Positions 27,611 through 36,181 of a stretch of 64,000 nucleotides of DNA are shown in pieces. Every line of letters starts with the position of its first letter. The stretch's first letter is position 1. Under the pieces are notes generated by a model. The model was not told the origin of the DNA. It did not search any database and saw only the letters and a program-made list of their open reading frames with translations. Position numbers and translations under genes: made by a program. This DNA is from Porodaedalea pini (Eukaryota; Basidiomycota; Agaricomycetes; Hymenochaetales; Hymenochaetaceae): positions 231,656-295,655 of the forward strand of contig NBAY01000056.1 of assembly GCA_002794775.1 (NCBI GenBank). Direction: 5' to 3'.

Positions 27611-27844
27611 GAGCACAGCCTTGTCATAGAATTTAGAAAAGGCCTCTGTGTCCATTGTTATGTAATCATAAATCCGCACAAGCTGTAAACTGACATCATT
27701 GATCGACAGATTTACTCTAGCTCTATTATTATTAATCTAACAGCACCATCGATGCACAATTAAAGAGCTTTCAGCTTCATCGATGTAAGTTTATACCTAC
27801 TAGCTACCTTGTGCGTCCCTCGGCTCACATGCATTTAGTTGCAA

Positions 27845-29460
27845 TACAAATCTTCGTGAAGACGCTCACCAGGAAGAACAGATGCAATCACTCAAACCAT
27901 CCACACGGCACTCGACTGACATGACTGTACTGTTCCTTTGACTAGTACTAGTAGCATCTTATCTTCGCCGGAAAGCAGCTTGAGGATGGTCGTACCTTAT
28001 CGGATTGCAACCCCCAAGAGGAGACGACGTTCCGCATTGCCCTTTGGCCATAGCGGCATGCAGATCTTCGTGAAGACTCTCCGGAAAGGCGGGAGGTACG
28101 TCGCTCTCCTTTGTGCGTCGTACATATGACTAATAGTACTCTTCCGACGACGTCTGATCTTCGCCGGCAAGCAGCTTGAGGACGGTCGTACCTTATCGGA
28201 CTACAACATCCAGAAGGCGACGACGCTCCGGAAGGCAGGAGGTACGTCTGATCTTCACTGGCAAGCAGCTTGAGGATGGTCGTACCTTATCAGATTACAT
28301 CCTCCAGGAGGAGATGACACTCCGCATTGCCCTTTGGCCGTAGCGGCATGCAGATTTTCGTGAAGACTCTCCGGAAAGGTGGGAGGTCCGTCGCTCTCCT
28401 TTGTGCGTCGTATATATGACTGATAGTACTCTTCCGACGACGTCTGATCTTCGCTGGCAAGCAGCTTGAGGACAGTCGTACCTTATCGGACTACAACATC
28501 CAGAAGGCGACGACGCTCCGGAAGGCAGGAGGTACGTCTGATCTTCACTGGCAAGCAGCTTGAGGATGATCGTACCTTATCGGATTACAATCCCCAGGAG
28601 GAGACGACACTCCGCATTGTCCTTTTGCCGTAGCGGCATGCAGATCTTCGTGAAGACTCCGGAAAGGTGGGAGGTCCGTCGCTCTCCTTTGTGCGTTGTA
28701 TATACGACTAATAGTACTCTTCCGACGACGTCTGATCTTCGCTGGCAAGCAGCTTGAGGACAGTCGTACCTTATCGGACTACAACATCCAGAAGGCGACG
28801 ATGTTCGGGAAGGCAGAAGGGGTATGTCAATTGTCTTTCTGTGTGTTTTGTACGGCTGATAAACTCCGTCTGACGAGTAGCGTCTGACCTTCGACGGCAA
28901 GCAGCTTGAGGATGGTCGTACCTTATCGGATTACAACCTCCAGGAGGAGACGACGCTCCGCATCTCCCTTTGGCCGTAGCGGCATGCAGATCTTCGTGAA
29001 GACTCTCCGGAAAGGCGGGAGGTACGTCGCTCTCCTTTGTGCGTTTTACATATGACTAATAGTACTCTTCCGACGACGTCTGATCTTCGCCGGCAAGCAG
29101 CTTGAGGACGGTCGTACCTTATCGGACTACAACATCCAGAAGGCGACGATGTTCGGGAAGACAGAAGGGGTATGTCAATTGTCTTTCTGTGTGTTTTGTA
29201 CGGCTGATGAACTCCGTCTGACCTTCGCCGGCAAGCAGCTTGAGGATGATCGTACCTTATCGGATTACAACCTCCAGGAGGAGACGACACTCCGCATTGT
29301 CCCTTGGCCGTAGCGGCATGCAGATCTTCGTGAAGACTCCGGAAAGGTGGGAGGTCTGTCGCTCTCTTTGTGCGTCGTATATATGACTTATAGTACTCTT
29401 CTGATCTTCGCCGGCGAGCAGCTTGAGGACGGTCGTACATTGTCTGACTACAAATTCTTC
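27845..29460 (+). repeat. left array of truncated polyubiquitin units
   Basis: About ten copies of a piece encoding [18 protein letters not shown] (starts near 27962, 28152, 28252, 28447, 28547, 28736, 28889, 29087, 29222, 29408). About six copies of ATGCAGATCTTCGTGAAGAC (MQIFVKT) directly follow a damaged LRGG-type tail. Spacers start GTACGTCGCTCTCC or GGTATGTC and end near GACGACGTCTGATCTTC, as an intron would. Ubiquitin residues from about 9 to 42 are absent in every unit, and frames are broken (for example TGGCCGTAG before ATGCAG), so no functional ubiquitin can be made. Confidence 0.9.
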
Positions 29461-29666
29461 TGTGAGGATGCTGTAGCAAGATGGTCATATCAGAGACTGA
29501 AGTCATTGATGACAATATGATGAGGATGTGTACGTTGTTTATTGTTACAGGTCTCTTATATACAGTTGATTAAATGTACTATATAACTCTTCAATCATTC
29601 ATGCAATCATTTGATGAATAGTGTTAGACGAGACATGATATGTACATTGTAACTATATACCAAACC

Positions 29667-33208: not shown

Positions 33209-33496
33209 GGTGGTAGCAGAAAGAGGGTGATCCAGACGACGCTGTTGCATCTGCTGGCATTCATGTACACGCGGCCTTCATTGAAGTACACATGCTGATT
33301 CAATCGTAGAAGCTCATTTAATTTCCGACATTTCACCGGCCATTGATTCACAAGTATCTGCATACCGCCATGCAGAAGATAAACAATATTAAATGTCAAG
33401 CTCATTCCAGTATTGCAGCTGTCAAGCTACTTGTCGGCAAATTTCACACATTGCTTAATGGTCTATGTGATACACAAAAACTCCCTTATTCGTCCC

Positions 33497-36080
33497 AAGA
33501 GTCTTCACGAAGATCTGCGTGCCGCTTCGGTCAAAGGGAGATGCGGAGCGTCGTCTCCTCCTGGGTGTTGTAATCCGATAAGGTACGATCATCCTCAAAC
33601 TGCTTGCCAGCGAAGATCAGACGCTGTCGTCGGACGGAGATTATCAGCCGTGTATGATACACAGAAAAATAAACGACGTACCTCCCACCTTCCGGAGCGT
33701 CGTCACCTTCTGGATGTTGTAATCCGATAAGGTACGGCCGCCCTCAAGCTGCTTGCCGGCGAAGATCAGACGTCGTCGGAAGAGTACTATTAGTCGTACA
33801 TATGACGCACAAAGAGAGCGACGGACCTCCCACCTTTCCGGAGAGTCTTCACGAAGATCTGCATGCCGCTACGGCCAAAGGGAGATGCGGAGTGTCGTCT
33901 CCTCCTGGGGATTTAATTCGATAAGGTACGACCGTCCTCAAGCTGCTTGCCGGCGAAGATCAGATGCTGTCGTCGGATGAATATTATCAGCCGTATATGA
34001 TACACAGAAAGATAAATGACATACCTCCCCGCCTTCCGGAGCGTCGTCGCCTTCTGGATGTTGTAATCCGATAAGGTACGACCGCCCTCAAGCTGCTTGC
34101 CGGCGAAGATCAGACGTCGTCGGAAGAATACTATTAGTCGTATATATGACGCACAAAGGAGAGCGACGGACCTCCCATCTTTCCGGAGTCTTCACGAAGA
34201 TCTGCGTGCCGCTACGGTCAAAGGGAAATGCGAAGCTTCGTCTCCTGGGTGTTGCAATCCGATAAGGTACGACCATCCTCAAGCTGCTTGCTGGCGAAGG
34301 TCAGACGCTGCTCGTCAGATGGAGTCTATCAGCCGTATATGATACACAGAAAACTAAACGACGTACCTCCCACCTTCCGGAGCGTCGTCACCGATAAGGT
34401 ACGGCCGCCCTCAAGCTGCTTGCCAGCGAAGATCAGACGCTGCTCGCCGGAAGAGTACTATTAGTCGTATATACAACGCGCAAAGAGAGCGACGGACCTC
34501 CCACCTTTCCGGAGAGTCTTCACGAAGATCTGCATGCCGCTACGGCCAAAGGGAGATGCGGAGCGTCGTCTCCTCCTGGAGGTTGTAATCCGATAAGGTA
34601 CGACCATCCTCAAGCTGCTTGCCGTCGAAGGTCAGACGCTACTCGTCAGACGGAGTTTATCAGCCGTACAAAACACACAGAAAGACAATTGACATACCCC
34701 TTCTGTCTTCCCGAACATCGTCGCCTTCTGGATGTTGTAGTCCGATAAGGTACGACCGTCCTCAAGCTGCTTGCCGGCGAAGATCAGACGTCGTCGGAAG
34801 AGTACTATTAGTCATATGTAAAACGCACAAAGGAGAGCGACGTACCTCCCGCCTTTCCGGAGAGTCTTCACGAAGATCTGCATGCCGCTACGGCAAAAGG
34901 ACAATGCGGAGTGTCGTCTCCTCCTGAGGGTTGTAATCCGATAAGGTACGACCATCCTCAAGCTGCTTGCCAGCGAAGGTCAGACGCTGTCATCGGATGG
35001 ATATTATCAGTTGTATATGATACACAGAAAGATAAACGACGTACCTCCCGCCTTCCGGAGAGTCGTCACCTTCTGGATGTTGTAATCCGATAAGGTACGA
35101 CTGCCCTCAAGCTGCTTGCCGGCGAAAATCAGACACTGTCGTCGGAAGAGTACTATCAGTCATATATACAACGCGCAAAGAGAGCGACGGACCTCCCACC
35201 TTTCCGGAGAGTCTTCACGAAGATCTGCATGCCGCTACGGCCAAAGGGAGATGCGGAGCGTCGTCTCCTCCTGGAGGTTGTAATCCGATAAGGTACGACC
35301 ATCCTCAAGCTGCTTGCCGTCGAAGGTCAGACGCTACTCGTCAGACGGAGTTTATCAGCCGTACAAAACACACAGAAAGACAATTGACATACCCCTTCTG
35401 CCTTCCCGAACATCGTCGCCTTCTGGATGTTGTAGTCCGATAAGGTACGACCGTCCTCAAGCTGCTTGCCAGTGAAGATCAGACGTCGTCGGAAGAGTAC
35501 TATTAGTCGTATATACAACGCACAAAGGAGAGCGACGGACCTCCCACCTTTCCGGAGTCTTCACGAAGATCTGCATGCCGCTACGGCAAAAGGACAATGC
35601 GGAGTGTCGTCTCCTCCTGGGGATTGTAATCCGATAAGGTACGATCATCCTCAAGCTGCTTGCCAGTGAAGATCAGACGTACCTCCTGCCTTCCGGAGCG
35701 TCGTCGCCTTCTGGATGTTGTAGTCCGATAAGGTACGACTGTCCTCAAGCTGCTTGCCAGCGAAGATCAGACGTCATCAGAAGAGTACTATCAGTCATAT
35801 ATACGACGCACAAAGGAGAGCGACGGACCTCCCACCTTTCCGGAGAGTCTTCACGAAGATCTGCATGCCGCTACGGCCAAAGGGCAATGCGGAACGTCGC
35901 CTCCTCTTGGGGGTTGCAATCCGATAAGGTGCAACCGTCCTCAAGCTGCTTGCCGGTGAAGATAAGAAGCTACTAGTCAAAGGAACAGTACAGTCATGCC
36001 AGTCAAGTGCCGTGTGGATGGTTTGAGCGATTGCGTCTGTTCTTCCTGGTGAGTGTCTTCACGAAGATCTGTATTGCTTT
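33497..36080 (-). repeat. right array of truncated polyubiquitin units
   Basis: Same units as the left array, inverted and more numerous. About 15 copies of CAAGCTGCTTGCC (GKQL on the minus strand; near 33597, 33743, 33940, 34088, 34281, 34412, 34611, 34760, 34963, 35107, 35309, 35459, 35654, 35749, 35941). About nine copies of CTTCACGAAGATCTG (QIFVK; near 33509, 33846, 34189, 34508, 34866, 35205, 35560, 35848, 36056). Units alternate in a higher-order period of roughly 340 bp. Some neighbouring units are almost identical, pointing to recent expansion by unequal exchange. Confidence 0.9.
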
Positions 36081-36181
36081 GCAAGCAACTAAATGCGTAC
36101 TTTATATGCGTGGGTAAATACTTCTAAACCTAGTTCTGAAAACATGTGTTGAACACGCTTGTCCTACACTTCGACGTGACA

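Follow-up and report, generated by a model that had tools for sequence, protein, structure and literature searches.

Transposons of the TRC/CACTA type such as SmTRC1 and the Aedes TRC encode a Transposase_21 protein together with a second, rapidly evolving protein and carry 2-bp direct repeats at their ends; SmTRC1 also contains a tandem-repeat region (PMC1636069; this and the other papers cited here are drawn on in excerpt). Host gene fragments are captured in plants by CACTA elements of the Tgm-Express type and by Pack-TYPE elements (PMC1947982, PMC8903248), and the Foldback-like Galileo has long, internally repetitive inverted repeats (PMC3573991). Here we describe a transposon in a 64,000-nucleotide stretch of the basidiomycete Porodaedalea pini (contig NBAY01000056.1, positions 231,656 to 295,655; hereafter the window), which combines inverted arrays of polyubiquitin fragments with a Transposase_21 gene. 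For a beta-glucan-synthesis protein encoded nearby, the three best hits (72-75% identity) come from Coniferiporia, Sanghuangporus and Phellopilus, all members of the Hymenochaetales, which points to a probable host in this order. As in SmTRC1 and the Aedes TRC, its terminal inverted repeats (TIRs) start with CCC (Aedes: CCCAGTCAAC), but its end duplications measure 7 bp rather than 2 bp, and the excerpt on those elements describes no captured polyubiquitin. One known Transposase_21 element likewise holds captured gene fragments and a tandem array, yet in the excerpt describing it that array is a satellite near the 3′ end, whereas here two mirror-image arms come from a host gene. Captured fragments are shared with the Tgm-Express and Pack-TYPE elements, except that here the transposase-bearing element itself carries them, amplified and inverted; the repetitive inverted arms recall Galileo, where such repeats are the terminal inverted repeats, whereas here they are internal. 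Searches of one open-access collection with ubiquitin terms found no transposon with polyubiquitin arrays among the titles and abstract openings listed. The best reading is a gene-capturing, CACTA-like transposon, of a known kind with unusual cargo.

We consider it probable that a 15.06-kb DNA transposon with a Transposase_21 gene took up units of the host polyubiquitin gene together with its 5′ end, as well as pieces of Gfa1 and other host fragments, and that the segment singled out in an initial annotation (27831..36096) is its central part. That annotation had taken 27831 and 36096 as the limits of the element and the arrays as its terminal inverted repeats, and had proposed searching for further copies with target duplications. 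In the 53.3 Mb of host genome searched, the transposase query gave six matches (genomic match counts are lower bounds throughout): three belong to copies with 99-100% identity to it, and the other three are pieces of what we take to be a single relic on C1. Comparison of the three copies, which remain similar past 27831 and 36096, moved the limits to 27498 and 42558. The TIR, CCCAGTGAAAA(G/A)TAGCAATTGTGG, starts at both of these ends; the left one (27498..27553, plus strand, CCCAGTGAAAAGTAGCAATTGTGG...) matches the right end at 27 of its first 30 bases and has about 50-55 bp in common with the mini-elements described below, and comparison with both delimits the right one (42504..42558, minus strand). 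Outside them, GGTCCGC at 27491..27497 is repeated at 42559..42565, and perfect 7-bp duplications flank all three full copies (GGTCCGC, CTTGAGC and ACTCATG). Each copy thus occupies a different target site, contrary to the possibility, raised at the outset, that no second copy with the same ends exists. Because the TIRs and 7-bp duplications of the copies lie outside the arrays, the arrays are internal to the element and not its ends, the left one lying 333 bp and the right one 6.46 kb from the corresponding true end. The matching outer ends noted initially do exist, in that GCATTTAGTTGC...ATCTTCGTGAAG...CTCACCAGGAAGAACAG is present inverted at 27831 and 36096, but they do not end the element: GCATTTAGTTGC was ruled out as an end, since the copies are alike beyond it and the TIRs and duplications lie further out, and no target duplication was seen by eye at 27831/36096. 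This pair is the edge of the inverted duplication and, by alignment, falls within the 5′ untranslated region (5′UTR) intron of polyubiquitin.

Allowing up to three mismatches, 55 sites in the genome carry the TIR pattern, against none for the pattern read backwards. Of these, 52 face one another in 26 pairs, made up of the three full-length copies, three pairs of 1.2-3.6 kb and 20 of 314-325 bp. The pairs of 1.2-3.6 kb lie at C42:293203-296758, C19:189628-190802 and C100:102778-103948. Five of the 20 mini-elements of ~320 bp were read; they have the same TIRs, with a perfect 7-bp duplication in four and six of seven bases in the fifth, and no ubiquitin sequence was seen by eye in these five whole mini-elements. 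The mini-element family of 314-325 bp is exemplified by C42:298115-298434 and C29:315196-315515. TCGAGTG occurs twice in the left 333 bp, twice in the right 359 bp and once in the remaining 14,369 bp of the element, and ATCGA seven, seven and 18 times, respectively (both counted without a control). The greater length of the C24 copy is due to an inserted 6,263-bp long terminal repeat (LTR) retroelement (C24:544953-551215, Ty3-like by eye), which has 422-bp LTRs that are 99.76% identical and CCATC at both junctions.

A scan with a 42-base ubiquitin core query (at most 12 mismatches; 13 for the relic) found 10 cores on the plus strand (27970-29454) and 15 on the minus strand (33567-35954), the numbers estimated initially; MQIFVKT starts (at most five mismatches) numbered six and nine. 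In 50 shuffled windows, cores matched 0 times and starts 11 times. Tandem Repeats Finder detected both arrays as well, and the composite periods it reported include 290 and 347-348 bp. The left array (27831..29457, plus strand, 10 cores) and the right array (33498..36096, minus strand, 15 cores, upstream of the transposase start) point inwards from either side of an open transposase frame, the mirror orientation described in the initial annotation. An 85-bp gap with one minus-strand TATAAA at 36101-36106 separates the right array from the start of a neighbouring cargo gene, gene2 (36097..36181). Array length differs among copies (10 plus and 15 minus cores in the window copy, C56; 12 and 15 in C42; 12 and 9 in C24), and the ubiquitin pieces contain, by eye, a near-palindrome, TCTTCGTGAAGA. 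In five of the six arms, the longest exact stretch shared with any other arm recurs in the opposite arm of that copy, which fits exchange between arms; speaking against this, the right arm of the window copy has its longest exact match with an arm of another copy (345 vs 302 bp).

The host polyubiquitin gene lies away from the element (C2:2233599-2234990) and has five units, each with an intron near codon 35 by eye, plus a 5′UTR intron; the arrays are thus not the flanks of a decayed native locus, the alternative first raised for them. Alignment of the units to this gene including its introns, as had been suggested, matched exon pieces, 5′UTR and splice site and bears out the captured host gene. 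Of the 25 array cores, 24 match host unit 3 best and one matches unit 5, and the preference for unit 3 persists with the ubiquitin loci C4:963719 and C2:1076232 added as candidates; mean identity to the best host unit is 94%, with exact runs of up to 43 bp. A 361-bp array piece gave 48 genomic matches, 41 in the three copies, five in the host polyubiquitin gene and two in the C1 relic, and maximal exact matches of at least 21 bp to the host gene number 29 and 40 in the two window arms and 0 and 7 in the relic arms. The left flank matches the host 5′UTR colinearly with the ubiquitin start: 27732..27830 (plus strand) aligns with the 5′UTR exon, the 5′ splice site and the start of the 5′UTR intron. 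This upstream-only alignment scores 47, compared with a mean of 21 and a maximum of 44 in 500 mononucleotide shuffles, and a mean of 22 and a maximum of 45 in 1000 dinucleotide shuffles, none of which reaches 47 although the best come close. Judged by these alignments, the arrays derive from the host polyubiquitin gene, with the left arm retaining part of its 5′UTR. Aligned to the two arms, codons 9-34 of host unit 1 reach scores of just 22 and 24, and no ubiquitin protein match in the three copies starts before residue 36 (best candidates only), so the array units do not code ubiquitin; the loss of the gene's centre proposed initially therefore holds for most units. Its proposed amplification also stands, but not into structural ends, the arrays being internal.

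The transposase gene (29461..33208, minus strand; left limit approximate) has its main open frame at 29953-32307. The frame between the arrays spans 784 amino acids from the open reading frame finder's TTG, within an open frame of 829, and the start codon is likely the ATG at 33208. The protein matches PF02992 (Transposase_21) at 35.5 bits against a cut-off of 28.6, and has 1061 homologs among 7997 candidates scored (best identity 63%). An alignment of 15 sequences, 14 of them taken from the 120 homologs listed, shows no variation at D311 or E616 and almost none at D221 (SIDGAQ); these are the putative catalytic residues. A search for relatives in viral contigs led nowhere. The host genome contains five Transposase_21 matches, four of them over the cut-off, and the three inside TIR pairs are the three full-length ones.

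The ends of the element begin with CCCAGTG, not CACTA, and their CCC agrees with the core suggested for animal TRC elements (PMC1636069). CMCT elements (EnSpm/CACTA, Transib, Plavaka and others) are described with duplications of 2-5 bp, Plavaka having TGT..ACA or CATCA..TGATG ends and 2-3 bp duplications, and hAT7 with duplications of 7 bp (PMC12730594). Neither the CCCAGTG ends nor the 7-bp duplications fit Plavaka. Several observations count against movement by the Transposase_21 protein: the duplications are longer than the 2-3 bp expected for CACTA/EnSpm (2-5 bp for CMCT), so that another transposase could move the TIRs; the genome holds 10 hAT-dimer matches; and a search for the CCCAGTG ends of the C1 relic did not find them. 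None of the hAT-dimer matches in the genome lies between any of the 26 paired TIRs. We infer that the element works like TRC/CACTA but stop short of placing it strictly within that group, as 7-bp duplications do not fit.

The transposase of the C1 relic is broken and 79% identical to that of the window. Ubiquitin pieces lie on both sides of it and point inwards, in the same mirror layout, and gene2, Gfa1 and a further cargo gene, gene3, follow in the same order and orientation, with Gfa1 in the same slot. Compared with the window, where the transposase is on the minus and gene2 on the plus strand, the transposase block is inverted relative to gene2 (array plus, transposase plus, array minus, gene2 plus, Gfa1 plus, gene3 plus). 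The relic array beside gene2 has a fuller polyubiquitin start, C1 96751-96426 corresponding to positions 157-505 of the host stretch. A candidate relic TIR at C1:98051-98340 was rejected as a dispersed repeat (40 matches scored including itself, at least 88% identity); a related stretch adjoins the other relic array. The relic transposase also contains a 15.9-kb insertion (C1:76101-92010), probably a different, long-TIR element, and a young one because its 1,151-bp inverted ends are 100% identical.

Between window and relic, the transposase shows a nonsynonymous distance (dN) of 0.119 and a synonymous distance (dS) of 0.886 over 649 codons, values that indicate purifying selection. Its distance at 206 four-fold sites is 0.54 (95% interval 0.42-0.68), compared with 0.22 (0.16-0.29) for the overlapping Gfa1 piece and 0.29 (0.19-0.40) for a ubiquitin unit, the latter based on one window unit of the 25 cores. 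The Gfa1 breakpoints on the host stretch also differ (792-1447 in the window, 1163-2045 in the relic). Different breakpoints and lower divergence than the transposase suggest that slots were refilled after the lineages split, and hint that both lineages may have drawn on the same host genes, polyubiquitin and Gfa1, to refill the same slots. Against such repeated uptake, the short Gfa1 piece by gene2 has a distance of 0.26 with a wide, overlapping interval (0.14-0.43, 64 sites), the transposase 5′ exon/intron region differs at 171 of 572 sites (30%), below the four-fold sites, and the intervals of ubiquitin and transposase almost meet. The divergence differences could also stem from concerted evolution, horizontal transfer or uneven rates.

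The anatomy of the element follows from its sequence: three recent copies, their ends and target duplications, the host origin of the arrays, their internal position, array-length differences and the orientation of the relic block. As to how it arose, the transposon would move by cut-and-paste through its Transposase_21 transposase. Template switching during repair is the usual capture model for such elements, and capture here would have occurred in this way, in gap repair after excision. Unequal exchange within and between arms would then have enlarged the arrays. Recombination between the inverted arms, which would flip the transposase block, is the simplest cause of the relic orientation, and the mirror arms probably serve as inversion substrates. 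With both arms facing inwards, a polyubiquitin-derived 5′ region stands upstream of the transposase whichever way the block lies, and this region would most likely form part of the promoter or 5′ region of the transposase; the right arm, which runs in the same direction as the transposase, stops 290 bp before the likely ATG and from its position may help to drive transposase transcription. These steps are weakened by the single relic on which the flip is based, where array misassembly is possible, by the positional basis of the promoter role, and by the fact that a single TATAAA proves little. We advance only tentatively, as a rather unlikely outcome, that the polyubiquitin and Gfa1 pieces act as homology pads for repeated uptake of new host sequence at fixed positions and that the arms form an invertible cassette whose inward promoter regions, from a host housekeeping gene, drive the transposase either way.

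The strongest competitor to this functional step, though not to the anatomy, stands at close to an even chance: the arrays may be passive baggage, a captured tandem gene that expands and contracts by recombination and has no role. Core counts do vary among copies, whole units are gone (with the ubiquitin matches of the best candidates in the three copies starting at residue 36 or beyond), the five mini-elements read by eye lack ubiquitin sequence, and the Gfa1 fragments of the same element are broken too; against this, the mirror layout around the transposase was retained in the relic despite a four-fold distance of 0.54. That the arrays instead form the structural ends, as terminal or subterminal repeats to which the transposase binds, would accord with their inversion around it and with the near-palindrome seen by eye in their pieces, but is highly improbable: the copies are alike past the arrays up to the TIRs and 7-bp duplications, which contradicts this reading, 6.46 kb separate the right array from its end, and the TIRs stand without ubiquitin sequence in the five mini-elements.

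The foreign look of the duplications could also mean nesting, in which the ubiquitin arms and the Transposase_21 gene form an element of their own (27831-36096), lodged within an unrelated, non-autonomous element that has the CCCAGTG ends and 7-bp duplications and is moved by another transposase. Duplications of 7 bp are unlike CACTA and described for hAT7 (PMC12730594, excerpt), hAT-dimer matches are present in the genome and no CCCAGTG end was found in the relic. We nevertheless regard nesting as unlikely, since no target duplication is visible by eye at 27831/36096, polyubiquitin 5′UTR lies outside this inner edge, and gene2, Gfa1 and gene3, also outside it, travel with the transposase in the relic too; in addition, the Aedes Transposase_21 element has the TIR CCCAGTCAAC (PMC1636069, excerpt). 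Still more doubtful is a hostage or camouflage role, whereby putative double-stranded RNA from the inverted arrays would match the essential polyubiquitin gene and any silencing of the element would then harm the host: the arms are long, inverted and, in the window, rich in exact matches of at least 21 bp to that gene (29 and 40), but the relic arms have only 0 and 7.

On our preferred reading, as a gene-capturing transposon, the element would have built its internal architecture out of a host gene that is essential and repetitive by nature. In two related lineages the same slots are filled from the same two host genes, the breakpoints differ, and the longer captured pieces compared are less diverged than transposase four-fold sites, which makes repeated homology-guided capture by a TIR transposon testable. 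A separate peculiarity is that a Transposase_21 gene goes together with 7-bp target duplications.

The remaining cargo lies to the right of the arrays on the plus strand. Gene2 (36182..37741; two exons by eye) has a relic counterpart at 48-50% amino acid identity and a bZIP-like match that scores 16.8 bits and so falls short of the 27.6 required by Pfam; its second exon has no homolog at E<=0.001 among 594 candidates, and none was found outside the host genome. Captured Gfa1 fragments follow at 37774..37900 (78% nucleotide identity to the host gene), 37942..38235 (86% with gaps counted, 90% without) and 40621..41272 (90-91%). Their identity as Gfa1 comes from NCBIfam glmS, with fragment scores below the full-length cut-offs, and the host Gfa1 gene is on C28; a Pfam scan of the cargo fragments led nowhere. 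Between them, an open frame at 39389..40021 is taken as another captured fragment (93% amino acid identity over residues 1-179 to C19:502487). Gene3, or the last exons of gene2, occupies 41391..41971, of which 41391-41789 matches the relic at 37% amino acid identity (129 columns, E 4e-12). The cargo also contains an 81-bp duplication (96%; 38986-39066 and 39922-40002). Elsewhere in the window, 2846-3378 consists of 16.7 copies of a 32-bp unit (CAGATAGTTGGGCGCACCCAACTGGGCACCCC) and is open in one minus-strand frame.

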